DNA of 64,000 nt from Hyphomicrobiales bacterium. GTDB lineage: Bacteria; Pseudomonadota; Alphaproteobacteria; Rhizobiales; Rhizobiaceae. The notes below the pieces were generated by a model that ran no database searches, was not told the DNA's origin, and saw nothing but the letters and a program-made list of their open reading frames with translations. Shown here piece by piece: positions 5,098 to 28,646 of the stretch. The stretch is from contig UBJR01000007.1 of assembly GCA_900465675.1 (NCBI GenBank), positions 124,001-188,000 on the forward strand, read 5' to 3'. The stretch's first letter is position 1; the number at the start of each line of letters is the position of its first letter. A program made the translations under genes and the position numbers.

Positions 5098-6879
5098 ATG
5101 TTCGGAATGATCGGCGGCAATACAAAGGCTCAACTTGCGGCCCTTGCTCATATCAGAGCAAATGTCATGATCGCCGACAGCAAGCTGAACATCACATACA
5201 TGAACGATGCTGTTCGCCAACTGCTGACCTCAGCCGAACAGGACCTCAAGAAAGAACTGCCGCGATTTGCAGTCGACAAACTGATCGGCAGCAATATCGA
5301 CATCTTCCACAAGAACCCGTCGCACCAGCGAAACATGCTCGCACACCTGACGAAGCCGCACAGCGCGACGATCCGGGTAGGCAGTCATAGTTTCGACCTG
5401 CACGTCACCCCAATCATGGAAGGCGGGAAGCCCAAGGCATTCGTGGTGGAATGGGCTGACGCAAAAGAGCGGCTCCTCAATCTCGACTACCAGAACCAGA
5501 TGGCTGCGATCAGCCGGGTCCAGGCCGTTATCGAGTTCACGCTGGATGGCGAGATTGTCACGGCTAACGAGAACTTCTGCAAAACGATGGGTTACTCGCT
5601 CGACGAAATCCGCGGCAAGCATCACAGCATGTTCGTCGAGCCGGCCTACAAGACCAGTTCCGAATATGTCCAGTTCTGGGATGAGCTCAAAGCAGGCAGA
5701 TTCCAGGCGCAGGAGTTCACGCGCGTCGGCAAGAACGGCAAGAAGGTCGTCTTGAACGCGTCCTATAACCCGATCCTCGACGAACATGGAAAAGTCGCCA
5801 AGGTCGTTAAATACGCAACCGACGTCACGGACCGGGTATTCGCGGTCACCGAGATCGGGGCATCGCTCAACAAGCTCGCCGATGGCAGGCTCGATTTCCG
5901 CCTGGACCAGCCATTCGCAACCGACTTCGAAAGCCTCAGGAGCAATTTCAACGAGGCGATCGACAAGCTTGGTACGGCGCTCGGTTCGGTGGCAGATACG
6001 ACAGCCAGGATCGATTCCGGCACGCGCGAGATCGCCGCCGGTGCAAATGATTTGTCGAAGCGGACGGAGCAACAGGCGGCTTCGCTCGAGGAAACGGCAG
6101 CAGCCCTCGATCAGATTACCGCCAACGTCGGTAGCTCGACGAAGCGAACCGAGGAAGCACGCGGCGTGGCGAGCCAGGCCAATCATTCGGCGACAAAGTC
6201 CGCGGAAGTGGTTTCGCATGCCGAAGAGGCGATGCGAAAGATCGAGGAGAGCTCGCAGCAGATCTCCAACATTATCGGCGTGATCGATGAAATTGCTTTC
6301 CAGACCAACCTGCTGGCGTTGAATGCCGGTGTGGAAGCCGCCCGTGCCGGTGAAGCCGGTAAAGGGTTTGCGGTTGTCGCCCAAGAGGTGAGGGAGCTCG
6401 CGCAGCGCTCGGCACAGGCTGCCAAGGAGATCAAGGGTCTCATCCAGAACTCTACATCCGAGGTCGAAAGCGGCGTGAAGCTGGTGCGTGATGCCGGCGA
6501 GGCGCTGAAGACTATCGGTGGCTTCATCATCGAGATCAACGCTCATATGGAGGCGATCGCCACCTCTGCCAAGGAGCAATCCACAGGTCTGGCTGAGGTC
6601 AACTCTGCCGTAAACTCTATGGATCAGACGACCCAGCAGAATGCCGCCATGGTCGAGCAATCGAACGCGGCGTCCAACGCCTTGGCCGAGGAAGCAGGTC
6701 GACTGCGGAGCCTGATTTCGCAGTTCAGCGTCGGCACGTCCCGGACGTCGGCGCTGCGCCAGGTGGGACGTGCGATGGCGCGTCCGTCATCTTATGCCTC
6801 GCCCACAAACGCCGCCCCCGTTCTCAAGATGGCGGCAAATGGCGGTGCCCGCCCGGCGGATAGCTGGGAAGAGTTTTGA
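5098..6879 (+). CDS. Soluble methyl-accepting chemotaxis protein with two PAS domains
   Basis: Chemoreceptor that would control CheA from inside the cell: no hydrophobic segment long enough to cross the membrane is present. Residues about 10-115 and 130-240 look like two PAS sensor domains (the second with [20 protein letters not shown] and the TDVTDR exit motif). A HAMP-like linker and a long coiled-coil signalling domain follow, with the very conserved tip [20 protein letters not shown] near residue 397. The C terminus reads ADSWEEF, similar to the xWxxF pentapeptide that tethers the methyltransferase CheR. Rhizobial receptors such as McpY have this PAS-PAS soluble layout. The ligand is unknown; PAS domains often report redox or metabolic state. 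Confidence 0.92.
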
Positions 6880-7038: not shown

Positions 7039-7767
7039 TCAGACTTGGGCCATACCGCCATCGACAGCCAATTCTGCCCCAGTCGTAAAACTGCTCTCGT
7101 CGCTGGCGAGGAACAGGGCTGCTGCAGCGACCTCTTCAGGCCGGCCCATGCGTCCAAGCGGGATCATGCTGGACAGCACATCTCTAACCTCCTGCGAGGC
7201 GCTTGCCATCATTGCCGTGTCGGTTGGACCGGGGCTGACAACGTTGACGCGAATGCCTGTCGAAGCAAGTTCGTTGGCCCATGTGCGTGCGAACGAACGG
7301 ACAGCAGCCTTTGTTGCGCCGTAGACGCCGTATCCTTTGGTGCCGATATCACCCGCGATGGAGCCTATAAGCACGATCGATCCGCCGGCCTGCATCATGT
7401 CGGTAACACCCTGTGCCGCGAACACAAGCGACCGGACGTTCAGGCCGAAGGTCCGATCGAAGTGATCCTCGGAAATGTCTCGAAGGGGTGCGTATTCCGA
7501 TAGCCCGGCATTGATAACAAGCACGTCGATGCGGCCTTGTTCCGATCGAATGTGCTCTAGCACCCGCTGAAGATCGGCCTTGTCGCTGGCGTCCGCTTGA
7601 ATGACCCGGATGCCGCCCGAGCTCTCTGCTCCTGCTGTGGTCTCTCCACCCTTGCGGCTGGTCGCGTAGACCCGAGCGCCTTCGTTGGCAAATCTCTGGG
7701 ACACGGCGCCGCCAATGCCACCGACGCCGCCGATCACGAGGGCAACCTTGTTTGCTAATCTACTCAT
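7039..7767 (-). CDS. SDR-family NAD(P)-dependent oxidoreductase
   Basis: A 242-residue short-chain dehydrogenase/reductase. The cofactor loop IGGVGGIGG lies at about residues 10-18, the NAG segment (VLVINAGLS) follows, then the catalytic serine strand (IVLIGSIAG) and the YxxxK pair in GVYGATKAA, and finally the PGPTDTAM loop. It ends with the usual C-terminal GAELAVDGGMAQV. The start is the ATG at 7767, preceded by GGAG; a further in-frame extension upstream has no ribosome-binding site. It is divergent from an HxlR regulator and their shared 95-bp gap contains the block at 7796-7843, so it is probably that regulator's target. The substrate is unknown. Confidence 0.92.
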   Translation of the reverse strand: MSRLANKVALVIGGVGGIGGAVSQRFANEGARVYATSRKGGETTAGAESSGGIRVIQADASDKADLQRVLEHIRSEQGRIDVLVINAGLSEYAPLRDISEDHFDRTFGLNVRSLVFAAQGVTDMMQAGGSIVLIGSIAGDIGTKGYGVYGATKAAVRSFARTWANELASTGIRVNVVSPGPTDTAMMASASQEVRDVLSSMIPLGRMGRPEEVAAAALFLASDESSFTTGAELAVDGGMAQV

Positions 7768-7795: not shown

Positions 7796-7843
7796 GATAT
7801 ACGCTCTATACCTACGGTCAATTACGCACTATGAGTAAAGCAG
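7796..7843. promoter_or_regulatory. Shared promoter/operator block, copy 1 (between SDR and HxlR genes)
   Basis: This 48-bp stretch aligns without gaps to 10764-10811, with 40 identical positions counted by eye, including the exact 19-mer CTACGGTCAATTACGCACT (7812-7830) and AGTAAAGCAG at the end. Read towards the SDR gene it holds TTGACC as a possible -35 box, and 16 bp later TATCAC as a possible -10. The half nearer the HxlR gene would then be the regulator's site. The role is inferred from position and from the second copy. Confidence 0.6.
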
Positions 7844-7861
7844 ATATCGAGGAGTATACCC

Positions 7862-8284
7862 ATGTCCTTAAGTGATGACGTTCTGCTCACCAATGCCGGC
7901 TTGTCTCGCCGGCCCAAGCCCGTCTCTACGGAGGCCTTGCTGGACGTCGAAAAGGCACGACCGGTGCTTGAGCAGATCGCCAACAAATGGTCGGTCCTGA
8001 TCCTGACAGTCCTGTGTAGCAGGCCGTCACGATTCAACGAGATCATGCGTCGCCTTGACGGGATCACGCACAAGGCGCTTTCCGAAGCATTGAAGCGCCT
8101 GGAACGCAATGGTCTCATTCACCGTGAGGTACTGACCACAACCACGCCGGTTGGCGTCGAGTACACAATCACCTCGCTCGGGCGCTCCCTCCAGCAGCCG
8201 TTTGAGGCGCTTTACGCCTGGTCGATGACCTACGGCCCAGAGCTGGAGCGGGCCCAAGAAGAATACGATCGCCAGCGAGATTAG
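7862..8284 (+). CDS. HxlR-family winged-helix transcriptional regulator
   Basis: A 140-residue MarR-like repressor or activator of the HxlR type. The core runs from about residue 35 to 115 (IANKWSVLILTVLCSRPSRF, then the recognition helix ITHKALSEALKRLERNGLI and the wing VEYTITSLGRSL). The family generally responds to electrophiles or small aldehydes through a cysteine; the candidate here is the cysteine in TVLCSRPS. It is divergent from an SDR gene, and the same promoter block also precedes the lipase/reductase operon, so it probably governs all of these. The ATG at 7862 follows GAGGAG. It converges with the reductase gene at 8308, 23 bp away. Confidence 0.9.
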   Translation: MSLSDDVLLTNAGLSRRPKPVSTEALLDVEKARPVLEQIANKWSVLILTVLCSRPSRFNEIMRRLDGITHKALSEALKRLERNGLIHREVLTTTTPVGVEYTITSLGRSLQQPFEALYAWSMTYGPELERAQEEYDRQRD

Positions 8285-8307
8285 CTCGTTGGCGATCGTG
8301 CTGCGTT

Positions 8308-9336
8308 CTACCCTTCGCCCGACACCCGAACGACAAGCTTGCCGAAATTACGCCCCTGAAGAAGACCTATGAATGCGGCCGGTGCAAGTTCAAGGCCGTC
8401 AACAATGTCCTCCCGGTACTTCAACCTGCCGTCGGCAATCCAATCTGCCGCCTCTTTCAGAAACGTCGGTTGCTGGTCAATGAACTCGACGTTCATGAAG
8501 CCCCGAACCGTGATGCTCTTCTGCTGGATGACTTTCATCGACGCAGGAAGGCGGTCGACGGATGGCTCTGCCTCCGCATCGTCATTGTAGTGGGAAATCA
8601 TTCCGCACAGCGGCACACGCGCAAAATCGTTGAGAAGCGGCAGGACCTCGTCCCACACGGGGCCGCCGACATTTTCAAAATAGACATCGATCCCCTCGGG
8701 GCACGCCTCGGCAAGCCGACGCGCGAAGTCTGGAGCGCGGTGATCGATCGCGGCGTCAAACCCCAACTCGTTCTTCACGAAGGCGCACTTCTCACGGCCA
8801 CCTGCTATCCCGATCGCACGCGCTCCCCAGATCTTGGCGATCTGGCCAACGACTGAACCGACCGCACCGCTGGCTGCAGCAACCACCACAGTTTCTCCAG
8901 GCTTTGGGTGACCAATGTTGCCCAGGCCGGCATAGGCTGTGAAGCCGGGCATGCCGAGGACACCGAGTCCGGTCGAGATTGGCGCAACAGCCGGATCAAT
9001 GCGCCGCAAATCGCTGCCGTCGGAGATGGCGTGGGTCTGCCAACCGGAATAGGCAACAACGATATCGCCTTCCCTCCAATCCCGGTGACGGGACTGCATG
9101 ATCCTGGAGACCGTGGCGCCAGCCATCACGTGGCCGATCGCGATCGGATCAGCATAGGATTTGGCGCCACTCATGCGTCCCCGCATGTAGGGGTCGAGCG
9201 AAAGATAGATGGTTTCGAGCAGAACCCAACCGTCGGGCACCTCCGGCATGGCTGCGTCTTCAAGACGGAAATTGCTTGGCGTCGGAGATCCGTCTGGCCT
9301 TGATGCAAGCACGATCTGTCTAACGGTTTCTGTCAT
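8308..9336 (-). CDS. NADP-dependent oxidoreductase, CurA / zinc-independent medium-chain family
   Basis: A 342-residue medium-chain reductase of the group that includes curcumin reductase CurA, leukotriene B4 12-hydroxydehydrogenase and plant double-bond reductases, enzymes that reduce the C=C bond of enals and enones with NADPH. Visible features are the LSLDPYMRGRM motif early on, the cofactor-binding VVVAAASGAVGSVVGQIAKI (an AxxGxxG loop), and the CGMISHYND segment late. The zinc ligands of alcohol dehydrogenases are absent. The ATG at 9336 has GAGGA 8 bp upstream. It lies 71 bp downstream of the lipase gene on the same strand and is probably cotranscribed with it. Confidence 0.88.
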   Translation of the reverse strand: MTETVRQIVLASRPDGSPTPSNFRLEDAAMPEVPDGWVLLETIYLSLDPYMRGRMSGAKSYADPIAIGHVMAGATVSRIMQSRHRDWREGDIVVAYSGWQTHAISDGSDLRRIDPAVAPISTGLGVLGMPGFTAYAGLGNIGHPKPGETVVVAAASGAVGSVVGQIAKIWGARAIGIAGGREKCAFVKNELGFDAAIDHRAPDFARRLAEACPEGIDVYFENVGGPVWDEVLPLLNDFARVPLCGMISHYNDDAEAEPSVDRLPASMKVIQQKSITVRGFMNVEFIDQQPTFLKEAADWIADGRLKYREDIVDGLELAPAAFIGLLQGRNFGKLVVRVSGEG

Positions 9337-9407
9337 GGATGGAGTCCTCAAATTCTGTCGTGATGGACCGCCGCGTTTCTTTCAGGCGCGGCGGTCGCAG
9401 TTTCTCG

Positions 9408-10634
9408 TCAGTCTGCGAACAGTTGTTTCAGGAACGCCATGGTGTCCGGCTGCGCGGCGCGGATGACGGTGAAGTGATCCGTGCCCGGATATTCGTTATA
9501 CGTCACGGGTGTTCCGTCCGCCTTCAATCGGGCAACCAGCGCCCGCGTCGTATTCAAAAAGACAAAGGCATCGTCGGGACCGAGGGAGATGAAGGTCGGC
9601 TTTTTGAGGCGGAAGTTCGGGTTGGCAGCCGGATCATTCGCAGCAAGAAAAGTGGCCATCTTCGGATCACTAGCCCAATTTTCCTTGAAGCCTTCGAACT
9701 TTGCGCCTCTTGCGGCGATCGCTTTGGACAGCCCACCGATGGCAGGAACCGAACAACGTGTTGTAAAGTCCTTCAGCTGCGCTTCAAGGTCAGGCCCCAT
9801 CACGGATGAAGCCTTGAATGAAGGATCGACAACCTTCAGCCCGGTCGTCATGAGGGCGACGTTGAAGTTCTGAAGAAGGCGATAGTCGCCTGCCTTGTCC
9901 GGGTTCACAGCGGCTCGCTGCCCAAGCTCTTTCACGAAGGCATCTATCGAGGTGTAGGGCGCTATGGCCACCGTGCCCTTGAATTCGAATTGCGGCGCTT
10001 CATCAGTATAGGCTTCGACGCCGAGAACCGCGTGACCCCCATCAGAATGTCCGACCGCAACATACTGCTTCGAAAGGTTGGCATCGACTTTGTGGGCAGC
10101 GACAACGCCGCTGATCAGTGATCGTGCAAGACTGCTGGCATTGAAGTAGGGGTAGGGAACTTCAGCCACTTCACCCAAGCCCTCAAGATCCGGGGCGACG
10201 ACCGCATAGCCTGCGTTTACAAGCGTCGAGATCTCGAACAGGTAATCGCTGGTGAAGCCGTCTTTGGTGAGGCCACCATCCAGTTCATCCGTTAAGCTCG
10301 GTGCGCACAGCTTGTTGCCAGGCGTCGTCGTCCCATGTGCCCAGGCGATGACCGGCCATCCGCCTTGCGGCGCATGTCCTTCTGGCACGAAGAGAAGGGT
10401 CGAAGCCTTTGTCTGTCCTCCGGACACGGACTGCATATAATAGATGATCAGCTCCGCGCGCCCCTTGATCTGTGGGGAAATCTTGTGTGGGTTATGAGAG
10501 ATCACCGATCCAGACGTTGCCGCTTCTTCCACGGCGAAGGCCGGAACGATGAGACCCGTGGTCATCGCGGCCGAGCCAAGGATGGTCGTGACAAGCACGC
10601 GCGTAAGCGCCCTTCTCAAAGTTGAGGCATTCAT
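9408..10634 (-). CDS. Secreted alpha/beta-hydrolase, secretory-lipase-like
   Basis: A 408-residue exported hydrolase. It starts with a basic then hydrophobic signal peptide of about 34 residues ending near VPAFA. The mature part shows an HGT oxyanion segment (AWAHGTTTP), the nucleophile elbow GHSDGG with Ser at about 197, a C-terminal acid in LGPDDAF and a histidine in PGTDHF. This order matches the LIP-type secretory lipase family (esterases on acylglycerols or other esters). The ATG at 10634 follows GGAGTG. The gene leads a probable two-gene unit with the CurA-like reductase, under a copy of the HxlR-associated promoter block. The substrate is not known. Confidence 0.85.
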   Translation of the reverse strand: MNASTLRRALTRVLVTTILGSAAMTTGLIVPAFAVEEAATSGSVISHNPHKISPQIKGRAELIIYYMQSVSGGQTKASTLLFVPEGHAPQGGWPVIAWAHGTTTPGNKLCAPSLTDELDGGLTKDGFTSDYLFEISTLVNAGYAVVAPDLEGLGEVAEVPYPYFNASSLARSLISGVVAAHKVDANLSKQYVAVGHSDGGHAVLGVEAYTDEAPQFEFKGTVAIAPYTSIDAFVKELGQRAAVNPDKAGDYRLLQNFNVALMTTGLKVVDPSFKASSVMGPDLEAQLKDFTTRCSVPAIGGLSKAIAARGAKFEGFKENWASDPKMATFLAANDPAANPNFRLKKPTFISLGPDDAFVFLNTTRALVARLKADGTPVTYNEYPGTDHFTVIRAAQPDTMAFLKQLFAD

Positions 10635-10763
10635 AAGACACTCCAGTTCGTTCAATTCATGATGCGCCGTCGCGAATGGGTGCTTTCCAAAGCGATGCTC
10701 GCGGGGGCGATTGAGAGATCCGATTGGCCGTGTTCAAAGAGACAAGCGCAATCGCCCACGTAA

Positions 10764-10811
10764 GATATACAGGGGATATCTACGGTCAATTACGCACTTT
10801 TAGTAAAGCAG
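10764..10811. promoter_or_regulatory. Shared promoter/operator block, copy 2 (upstream of lipase gene)
   Basis: Ungapped match to 7796-7843: GATATAC at the left, the identical 19-mer CTACGGTCAATTACGCACT (10780-10798) and AGTAAAGCAG at the right. Read towards the lipase gene it gives TTGACC, 16 bp, then TATCTT, a fair sigma-70 promoter about 130 bp before the lipase start. The conservation outside the -35 box suggests a protein-binding site, most simply for the HxlR protein at 7862. Confidence 0.6.
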
Positions 10812-10881
10812 GTTTCACCTCATATATCGGCGTGGGGCAGAGGATCTCGACGCGACCTAGGCCAGCGGTGTTGGCATTCCG

Positions 10882-11148
10882 GTGAGGATCAAGGCGACGA
10901 GCTTCAGCTTCGACCAACTCTCGCCGCGCGAAGCTGCAAGAGACGTTCGATTGCCGAGCTTCATCTACCAGGTTCGCGACGATCTTGTAAGCAAGCCGAT
11001 TGACGTGCAGACCATCTTCGACAATCTGGCGGCCGAGCAGAAGGACTTGTTCTGGATTGAGGGAACAACGCGTCGTTGGGATGGCTACGGCTATTTCTCA
11101 CAAGACCCTTCGAAGATGTTGGCTTGGCTTGATCGATATATGAGCTGA
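10882..11148 (+). pseudogene. C-terminal fragment of an alpha/beta-hydrolase
   Basis: The 88-residue frame opens with GTG at 10882 and reads like the last third of a dienelactone-hydrolase-like alpha/beta-hydrolase. YQVRDDLVSKPIDVQTIFD carries the usual acid-bearing loop, and FWIEGTTRRWDGYGYFSQ is the usual terminal stretch where the catalytic histidine would be expected but is not seen. The N-terminal lid and nucleophile serine are missing, so it cannot be an active hydrolase by itself. No Shine-Dalgarno sequence stands out. It is most likely a relic left by deletion between the lipase promoter and the chemoreceptor gene. Confidence 0.6.
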
Positions 11149-11258: not shown

Positions 11259-13094
11259 TCAGCCGGCTCTGCGCATGCGCTGTCCGACAAGATGTAGTTC
11301 GGAGACCCCGCTGAGATCGCCGACGCGGAAACTGCGAATTAAGTTGAGCAGCTCGTCGGTGTCGGTCGCCAATGCTTCGGCCGACGCGGTAGTCTCCTCT
11401 GCCATGGCAGCGTTATGCTGGGTCGCCGCGTCCAGCTGGTTCAACGACGACGATATCGACCGCAGCGTCGTGTCCTGTTCCGAAGCAGAGTGGGCAATTT
11501 TGCCTACGATGTCGCTTGCGGCCTTCACCTGATCTGAGATCCGCTTAAGAGCTTCGCCGGCCTCCCCGACAAGTCGCACGCCGTTCTGTACCTGGCCGGA
11601 CGAGCGGGAGATCTGGTCCTTAATCTCTTTAGCAGCGGCTGCTGAGCGCTGGGCAAGTTCTCGGACTTCCTGCGCCACGACCGCAAAACCCTTACCGGAT
11701 TCGCCTGCACGTGCCGCCTCGACGCCTGCATTCAGAGCCAGCAAATTGGTCTGAAATGCAATTTCATCAATGACGCCGATGATCTTGGAAATCTCGCCAG
11801 ACGAATGCTCGATACCGCCCATGGCCTGGATTGCCTGCGCCACGATCGCATCGGACCGGCTAGCCTCGGTGCTAACCAAGGCAACGCGCTGCGCCGCGTC
11901 GTGAGCGCCTTCTGCCGTCGTCCGCACTGCGACTGTCAATTCGTCGAGTGCTGCCGAAGTTTCCTCCAGATTGGCGGCCTGGCGCTCGGTGCGCTGCGAC
12001 AACTCGCTGGAAGCGCGGCGGATTTCTTCTTTCGAACCGCCGATATCGACGCCCTTAGCGTTGACCTTGGCCACCGCCGACTCGAGGTGGCCGATTGCCT
12101 CGTTGAAATTGTGACGTAACTCGTCATATCGCCGACCCAGATCGCTACAGCGAACCGTCAGGTCGCCGCTGGCAAGCGTCTCCAATGCCTTCCCGATCGT
12201 GGAGACGACATGGGACTGCTCTGCCGCATCCTGCTGCTGGGCTGCGAGATTTTCCTGGCGCGCTCGATCAAGGTTCTGCGTCTGCTGCGCTTCCCGCTCC
12301 GCCATAAGGTGTCGGTCACGGATTTTCTCCTGCAATTCTCCGGTCGCCCTCGCCATCATGCCGACTTCGTTCGTCAAGTCAGTATAAGGAATTTTCGTGG
12401 TGACATCTTCGTCGGCCACCGCAGCGAGCGCATGATGGACAGCGGCAAGCGGCTTGGTGATGTTCCGGATAACAATTAGGGCCAATCCGAGTGCTAGCAA
12501 AAATGCAACGAAGCCAACACTGATCACCTCAATGGTCTTCTCACTGATTTTCGCATCTAGGTCGTCCGTGTAGGCGCCGGAGCCGACAACAACCTGCCAG
12601 GGCTCGAAAACTCGCGAATAGACTATCTTTTTGAACACCTGGTCGTCGGGCATCCCTGGCTTCGCGAAATAATACTCCGTAATGCCGCCGCCCGCGCGTC
12701 CTTTGGCAACGATGTCCTCGCGATACAAATGACCCGTTTTGTCCGGCTGCCCCTTTTGTGGCACTCCGACAATTTTTGGGTTGTAATGGAAAACCGTTGT
12801 TACGTCATAGTTCAGACCGAAAATATACCCCGCGGGTTCAAACTTGATCCCCGCGACAGTAGTATAAGCAAGTTTTTGCGCCTCCTCGTGGGACAGGACA
12901 CCTGATTTTTCCTGGGCGTAATAGGACTGAAGAATTGAAATGCCAGACTCCACCTGCGTACGCAGCATCTCGGAGCGCTCGGTGTAGATCGCCCCTGCTG
13001 AGCTCCGGACCTGGTAATAGGTGAAAGCTACGAAGGCCGCCATGAGCACGGCGACCATACCCAGAAGCTGATGGGAAATTTTGAGGTTTTTCAT
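11259..13094 (-). CDS. Transmembrane methyl-accepting chemotaxis protein with Cache sensor
   Basis: A classical membrane chemoreceptor of 611 residues. One membrane helix lies at about 10-28, a periplasmic single-Cache domain at about 35-185 (aromatic- and glycine-rich, with EPAGYIFGLNYDVTTVFHYN and WQVVVGSGAYTDDL), and a second helix at about 190-212. A HAMP domain and the coiled-coil signalling region follow, with the conserved tip [20 protein letters not shown] near residue 440. sCache domains in this group usually bind small carboxylates; the ligand here is unknown. No CheR-binding pentapeptide is present at the C terminus, unlike the receptor at 5098. The ATG at 13094 (MKNLKISHQ) is preferred over an upstream TTG. 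Confidence 0.92.
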   Translation of the reverse strand: MKNLKISHQLLGMVAVLMAAFVAFTYYQVRSSAGAIYTERSEMLRTQVESGISILQSYYAQEKSGVLSHEEAQKLAYTTVAGIKFEPAGYIFGLNYDVTTVFHYNPKIVGVPQKGQPDKTGHLYREDIVAKGRAGGGITEYYFAKPGMPDDQVFKKIVYSRVFEPWQVVVGSGAYTDDLDAKISEKTIEVISVGFVAFLLALGLALIVIRNITKPLAAVHHALAAVADEDVTTKIPYTDLTNEVGMMARATGELQEKIRDRHLMAEREAQQTQNLDRARQENLAAQQQDAAEQSHVVSTIGKALETLASGDLTVRCSDLGRRYDELRHNFNEAIGHLESAVAKVNAKGVDIGGSKEEIRRASSELSQRTERQAANLEETSAALDELTVAVRTTAEGAHDAAQRVALVSTEASRSDAIVAQAIQAMGGIEHSSGEISKIIGVIDEIAFQTNLLALNAGVEAARAGESGKGFAVVAQEVRELAQRSAAAAKEIKDQISRSSGQVQNGVRLVGEAGEALKRISDQVKAASDIVGKIAHSASEQDTTLRSISSSLNQLDAATQHNAAMAEETTASAEALATDTDELLNLIRSFRVGDLSGVSELHLVGQRMRRAG

Positions 13095-13507
13095 GATCGA
13101 CTCGGGATAGCCAGCCAAAGCTCTTTGAGGATCTAAGGCTAGAATGGTTTCGATGAAGTGGTGTGGCGCTGCGCTTTATCTCGAATGCTGCAGCCCGTGC
13201 GAAGACTGCTTCGTATAATTGAATATAAACTTAAAATTCCGGGCGATTGCGCGAGAATGATCTGCCTTTTTCACGACAGCCTCATTTTGAATTTAAGTGC
13301 TTTTCCGAACGGCGTAATCGCGACGCTGCGCTCCCAAGATTTCACTAAATCGATATGCCGTGAGCCATATCAAGGCTAGAAGTGGGCAACTGTTCCAGTC
13401 GTCCCAGTTTTGGATAATATGCCGGGACGCCACCGTCCGAACGCGCGAAACTTCACCATTGTGTCACGGCGATAAAAATCCTTGGCGCTGCCGAGCAAAG
13501 ACGAGGT
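13095..13507. other. Intergenic region between chemoreceptor and threonine dehydrogenase genes
   Basis: About 410 bp, downstream of the threonine-degradation operon and upstream of the chemoreceptor (both on the minus strand). It must contain the chemoreceptor promoter and the operon's 3' end. No gene, strong hairpin or recognisable box was found. Confidence 0.35.
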
Positions 13508-28322: not shown

Positions 28323-28646
28323 ATGATGGAACAAGCCCCGCGTGATTGTCCAGTAGAAGCTGCTGTCTCAGCTGCATTTGGGAAATGGAAACCGATCATC
28401 ATTCATCACCTGCTTGACGGCCCGTTGCGCTTTGGAGAACTCCGAAGGGACATCGGCGATGTCACGCAGCGATCGTTGACTTTGCAGCTTCGGCAACTGG
28501 AGACTGACGGGCTCATCAGCCGCGAAGTGTTTGCGGAAGTGCCGCCCAAGGTAGTGTACTCACTGACTGATTTTGGCCGCACGCTCGCGCCCGTGATCGA
28601 ATCCATGCGCGTTTGGGGAGAATTGCTCCTTGAACGGCGGGCATGA
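28323..28646 (+). CDS. HxlR-family winged-helix transcriptional regulator
   Basis: A minimal HxlR regulator of 107 residues: an N-terminal cysteine (RDCPVEAAVSAAFGKWKPII) of the kind used for redox or electrophile sensing, the recognition helix VTQRSLTLQLRQLETDGLI and the beta-wing PKVVYSLTDFGRTL. It is divergent from the quinone-oxidoreductase-like gene, its likely target, and converges on the FAD monooxygenase gene 74 bp downstream. It is distinct in sequence and length from the HxlR protein at 7862. Confidence 0.9.
   Translation: MMEQAPRDCPVEAAVSAAFGKWKPIIIHHLLDGPLRFGELRRDIGDVTQRSLTLQLRQLETDGLISREVFAEVPPKVVYSLTDFGRTLAPVIESMRVWGELLLERRA

Follow-up and report, generated by a model that had tools for sequence, protein, structure and literature searches.

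The stretch of DNA analysed here (the window) comprises 64,000 nt from a Hyphomicrobiales bacterium (GenBank assembly GCA_900465675.1, contig UBJR01000007.1, forward-strand positions 124,001 to 188,000) and was handled as C30:124001-188000 of its own genome (G000), a 6.25 Mb assembly of 49 contigs. The subject is a duplicated intergenic element, very probably the operator of an HxlR-family regulator, which lies in a four-gene module with the following features (window coordinates).

7039-7767, minus strand: SDR-family oxidoreductase, 242 aa (PF13561, E 2.5e-66)
7796-7860: putative operator 1 (c1), between SDR and hxlR, extent from footprint alignments
7812-7830, plus strand: 19-mer core of operator 1, exact match
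7862-8284, plus strand: HxlR-family regulator, 140 aa (PF01638, 84.6 bits against a gathering cut-off of 20.8)
8308-9336, minus strand: CurA-type NADPH-dependent double-bond reductase, 342 aa (NF058644, 533.6 bits against an equivalog cut-off of 440)
9408-10634, minus strand: LIP, secretory-lipase-family alpha/beta-hydrolase, 408 aa (PF03583, 31.9 against 23 bits)
10764-10828: putative operator 2 (c2), 5' of the LIP-CurA operon, same element as operator 1
10780-10798, plus strand: 19-mer core of operator 2, exact match

The two blocks had been noticed in a sequence-only reading, which aligned 7796-7843 with 10764-10811 without gaps at 40 of 48 identities and named an exact common 19-mer. A recount gave the same 40 identities and placed the 19-mer, CTACGGTCAATTACGCACT, at 7812-7830 and 10780-10798. 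Chance was ruled out as the source of the match, since no other 48-mer on either strand of the window matched one of the blocks at more than 26/48 and the 19-mer (up to three mismatches) occurred at these two places alone in the window, with an expectation of 0.00 from 100 shuffles. The block length of 48 bp proved too short, footprint alignments extending the similarity to ~65 bp (7796-7860 and 10764-10828). As described earlier, TTGACC faces the minus-strand genes in both copies (minus strand, 7821-7816 and 10789-10784), with a -10-like box at 16 bp spacing (TATCAC in c1, TATCTT in c2); TTGACC reads as the -35 box of SDR and LIP, and a second -10-like candidate, TATATC, can be read at 14 bp spacing. 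Operator 1 overlaps the SDR promoter region and the hxlR ribosome-binding site.

Scans of the whole genome were performed with the 19-mer (up to three mismatches) and with the extended pattern GATATA-N6-ATAYCT-N4-TCAATTACGCAC (up to three mismatches), the reversed pattern serving as control. The 19-mer was found three times in 6.25 Mb, exact in each case, at c1, c2 and a third place, c3, at C30:105772; the extended pattern added one diverged paralogue site, with altered middle letters, next to a third pair of HxlR and SDR genes (62% and 55% identical), and the reversed pattern gave no match in this genome. The c3 copy sits 26 kb from c1, between a second HxlR (90% identical) and a second SDR (87%), in a region 83% identical to the window along 1318 bp. 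Behind the c3-side HxlR, 29 aa of the CurA C-terminus survive as a remnant (76% identity, E 1e-9), which gives c3 the appearance of a second module copy that has eroded; the pair with its operator and CurA remnant occupies G000:C30:104998-106244 (L001 727-1973), upstream of c1. The earlier proposal of a single regulator acting at two sites stood as to the regulon, having overlooked c3 and the second HxlR. A further HxlR-family gene, 35% identical, was seen at ~28374-28619 on the plus strand (G000:C30:152374-152619), where the extended pattern was absent at up to three mismatches.

Conservation was followed in genus, family and named-record sets that partly share genomes, so that their counts are not independent and are not to be added. 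Among 148 genomes of the genus sample, HxlR (E≤1e-35) was present in 35 and the extended pattern in 39, at 50 places, with no place for the reversed pattern in the same 148 genomes. The pattern stood 33-84 bp upstream on the same strand of 40 of the 42 listed HxlR genes, which together cover all 35 genomes. Of the remaining ten places, one was c2 and one (G095, L024) adjoined an HxlR that has decayed; the other eight lay next to more distant HxlRs sharing 44-50% identity (G022, G031, G041, G088, G072:C24, G094:C1, G103:C573 and G115:C28). All 50 places were thus accounted for, 48 directly 5' of an HxlR gene, one being c2 and one adjoining the decayed HxlR (Fisher p 7e-30 for co-occurrence of pattern and HxlR, not corrected for relatedness). 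The plain 19-mer with up to two mismatches gave 28 places in 26 of these genomes, 24 of them beside HxlR; the other four were c2, the place with the decayed HxlR and two that have no HxlR beside them (L018, where the match falls within a coding frame, and L038), and the reversed 19-mer matched once. LIP (E≤1e-100) was found in one of the 148 genomes, the window's own. In three of the eight loci with a distant HxlR and a related operator (L125, L132 and L140), the divergent gene looks by eye like an enoyl-CoA hydratase.

The search by regulator protein in 394 genomes of the family (HxlR at E≤1e-36, LIP at E≤1e-70) is unbiased by any requirement for the core. HxlR was present in 37 of the 394 genomes, and in every one of the 27 loci retrieved through the HxlR protein alone the operator was matched best (0-4 mismatches) directly before HxlR, the second-best match in each locus having 7-11 mismatches; four of these loci (L159-L162) are the same sites as the LIP-fetched L153-L156. 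LIP was found in six of the 394 genomes and was operator-linked in all six. Across the class, 385 sampled genomes yielded no HxlR at E≤1e-36 besides that of the window's own genome, and the branch is therefore patchy.

Two arrangements of the module were distinguished. In four of the six LIP genomes, representing four other genera (G571, G572, G703 and G807), operator, SDR, LIP and CurA lie on one strand with HxlR divergent and the operator in single copy, and elsewhere SDR and LIP-CurA stand apart, each behind its own copy (G000, G698, L042, L053, L072 and L058/L080). Tandem duplication of an ancestral unit with loss of redundant genes would give the order of the window exactly. The modules are homologous from the SDR stop codon (7038 in L053, L058, L072, L086 and L122) as far as the edge of operator 2 (10829-10831 in L042, L053, L056 and L122; 10807 in L072 and 10816 in L080). 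N. galegae (L122) has kept both operators, though it has lost LIP and carries a broken CurA.

Occurrence beyond the family is known from a species-wide scan with CTACGRTCAATTACGCACY against 84,980 species, which by design returns near-exact cores alone and yielded 52 occurrences in 49 stretches. For 46 of these an HxlR orthologue lay 31-104 bp from the matched part in constant orientation, facing an SDR in 23, an alpha/beta-hydrolase (HYD) in 19, a distant SDR in one (L084) and the locus end in three (L052, L071 and L075). Five more lay 134-147 bp before LIP-CurA (L042, L053, L056, L072 and L080), and one (L070) lay beside a 21-aa HxlR remnant, the same decayed HxlR as in L024. The records include Rhizobium, Ensifer, Mesorhizobium, Phyllobacterium, Aurantimonas, Aureimonas, Mangrovicella and Inquilinus, together with Paraburkholderia, Burkholderia, Caballeronia, Trinickia and Variovorax. 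Across genomes, among them those of many soil and plant bacteria, the element keeps its placement and is associated with HxlR genes and with this gene set.

The shape of the element was read from an alignment of 66 distinct sequences in which the core TACGCAC was required. The fixed parts were GATATA, ATAYCT, the core ending in ACGCAC and, further right, GATAT and GTATAYC. Among six LIP copies the core was nearly invariant, and the GTATATC end was kept in five although no hxlR follows it there; the copy in the window reads CATATATC. GGAG, the hxlR ribosome-binding site, was not kept in the LIP copies. Several dyad axes scored alike, and a single clean palindrome was not obtained. In a comparison of four modules (window, L042, L053 and L072), invariant positions numbered 60/65 in operator 1 and 47/65 in operator 2, against 16/28 and 65/129 (LIP) in the leaders, 17/159 to the right of operator 2 and a fraction of 0.70-0.74 in coding regions.

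Operator 2 could instead be a fossil, an intergenic block left before LIP by tandem duplication of SDR/HxlR and no longer regulating. Erosion of this kind is seen in the CurA remnant behind the c3-side HxlR, in N. galegae, which retains both operators despite its lost LIP and broken CurA, and in L024/L070, where an operator persists beside a decayed HxlR. On the other side, operator 2 is better kept than the LIP leader or the DNA to its right, and its core hardly varies among the six LIP copies; we consider this explanation very unlikely.

The block might also be a conserved promoter, or the site of a transcription factor other than HxlR, and TTGACC with its -10-like box at 16 bp spacing fits a promoter. 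The block occurs with HxlR genes and hardly elsewhere, however, and TTGAC is lost in L106-L109 though GATATA, ATATCT and ACGCAC remain. Because TTGAC varies in subgroups while these three parts stay, the block as nothing but a -35/-10 promoter is not favoured, and a site unconnected with HxlR is judged highly improbable. The same data bear on the earlier suggestion that the conserved part outside the -35 box is the probable HxlR site: the surrounding parts are indeed fixed, and TTGACC is not the most conserved part, as it varies in subgroups. That the block belongs to a mobile element or is a dispersed repeat might be suggested by the occurrence of the module in many genomes, on plasmid records as well as chromosomal contigs, and by the presence of SDR/HxlR DNA twice in the own genome. 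This reading was refuted by the own-genome scans and has next to no chance of being right: the 6.25 Mb hold just three exact copies, each within a promoter region of this gene set, and the block keeps a fixed orientation and spacing relative to the regulator.

The block is thus very probably the operator of the HxlR regulator at 7862, uniting hxlR, SDR, LIP and CurA in one regulon. The mini-regulon of regulator, esterase, enone reductase and SDR put forward in the sequence-only reading gains strong support from the way the element tracks HxlR genes across genomes, and the membership of LIP-CurA from the recurrence of its operator copy in other strains and from the single SDR-LIP-CurA operon in four other genera. 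The ester- or aldehyde-type inducer suggested in that reading is a guess. Several observations weigh on the other side. The pattern searches and the 66-sequence alignment demand the core, whose conservation there is partly by construction; conservation is lower in operator 2 (47/65) than in operator 1 (60/65); the dyad is not clean, the best axes in the 66-sequence alignment scoring 5.66, 5.49 and 5.20; and two of the 42 close HxlR relatives lack the upstream pattern, one beginning 101 bp from a contig end (G109:C3) and the other being only 53% identical (G072:C30). A dyad-symmetric operator is usual for the HxlR family.

Under the operator reading, operator 1 would cover the promoter of SDR and the beginning of hxlR, and operator 2 the LIP-CurA promoter, so that the regulator would control itself, the SDR, a probably exported alpha/beta-hydrolase and the CurA-type double-bond reductase. 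The 90%-identical paralogue 26 kb away, whose operator has an identical 19-mer, probably shares these sites. Repression released by a small molecule or electrophile would be the likeliest action, since both the stretch from -35 to -10 of the enzyme promoters (if TTGACC is the -35 box) and the hxlR ribosome-binding site fall within the operator. We infer direct binding, repression rather than activation, an inducer and the sharing of sites between the paralogues.

For the sensing residue, 76 HxlR sequences were surveyed, one of them a fragment of the window protein. Cys52 without a cysteine 11-15 residues before Trp43 was found in 52 of the 76, the reverse in 24, and both or neither in none; the window regulator is of the Cys52 kind and has no cysteine 11-15 residues before Trp43. 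We hypothesize that Cys52 acts as the sensor. In L015, L021, L022, L025, L036 and 19 named loci, whose HxlR has the N-terminal cysteine, the gene facing it across the same core operator was HYD and not SDR. As a tentative wider reading, possible but rather doubtful, the ~65-bp element may be the long operator of a widespread, undescribed HxlR branch of Alpha- and Betaproteobacteria, with a core near-identical across both classes, which would seat more than one dimer and shut two divergent promoters simultaneously; its sub-branches would have swapped the sensing cysteine, one with an N-terminal cysteine mostly facing an alpha/beta-hydrolase, the other with Cys52 facing SDR, and LIP plus CurA in some lineages. 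If so, sensors that differ in their chemistry would recognise one common core operator.

Further details of the proteins and flanks were as follows. LIP also exceeded the cut-off of PF12697 (39.7 against 26.3 bits), and its N-terminus resembles by eye a signal peptide; it is probably exported. The CurA-type reductase matched PDB 5zxn at E 5.8e-115. Identity of the regulator with RrpA or RrpB was rejected, as it missed the NCBIfam cut-offs (NF047367, 37.2 against 185 bits; NF047364, 50.1 against 175 bits). Immediately right of operator 2, at 10832-11148 on the plus strand, lies the remnant of an alpha/beta-hydrolase C-terminus with upstream stops, which matched a UilS-type lactonase model weakly (19.1 of 400 bits), gave no Pfam match and had no tblastn match (E≤1e-6) in 49 named loci. 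The module is flanked by two genes that look by eye like methyl-accepting chemotaxis proteins (5098-6879, plus strand; 11259-13118, minus strand).

For a proteobacterial branch of HxlR regulators, these results define an operator by its sequence. They also join an SDR, a hydrolase that is probably exported and a CurA-type reductase in a single regulon, which is met again in other genera with its genes differently arranged; operator and regulon together make the inducer searchable. No paper on this operator or regulon was found in searches of one open-licence library. A local regulon of this type is of a known kind, and this member is new.

Among characterized proteins, the enzyme at 8308-9336 lies above the equivalog cut-off for CurA, the NADPH-dependent curcumin/dihydrocurcumin reductase, an assignment made from sequence. 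The nearest solved relative of LIP is a distant one, the esterase of PDB 3h2h/3h2g (E 2e-8, residues 58-227 only). HxlR of Bacillus is a formaldehyde-responsive activator of the same Pfam family, and its structures 7bzd/7bze match the window regulator at E ~3e-13; whereas that protein is named an activator, the window site overlaps the likely promoter, which would favour repression. The nearest solved relative of the regulator is YodB (PDB 5hs7, E 1e-15), which with CatR and QsrR belongs to the HxlR (or MarR/DUF24) repressors of Bacillus and Staphylococcus, the same family as the window regulator. These repressors govern small groups of detoxification enzymes, reductases among them (PMC6798810), and the sensing cysteine is N-terminal, Cys6 in YodB and Cys5 in QsrR (PMC6798810). 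A thiol-switch repressor of the YodB/QsrR type was rejected for the window, since the redox cysteine near the N-terminus is absent from its regulator. Compared with YodB, CatR and QsrR, the window system differs in its gene set (SDR, LIP and CurA) and has an element of ~65 bp, and, in contrast to the N-terminal sensing cysteine of YodB and QsrR, its regulator carries Cys52 instead.

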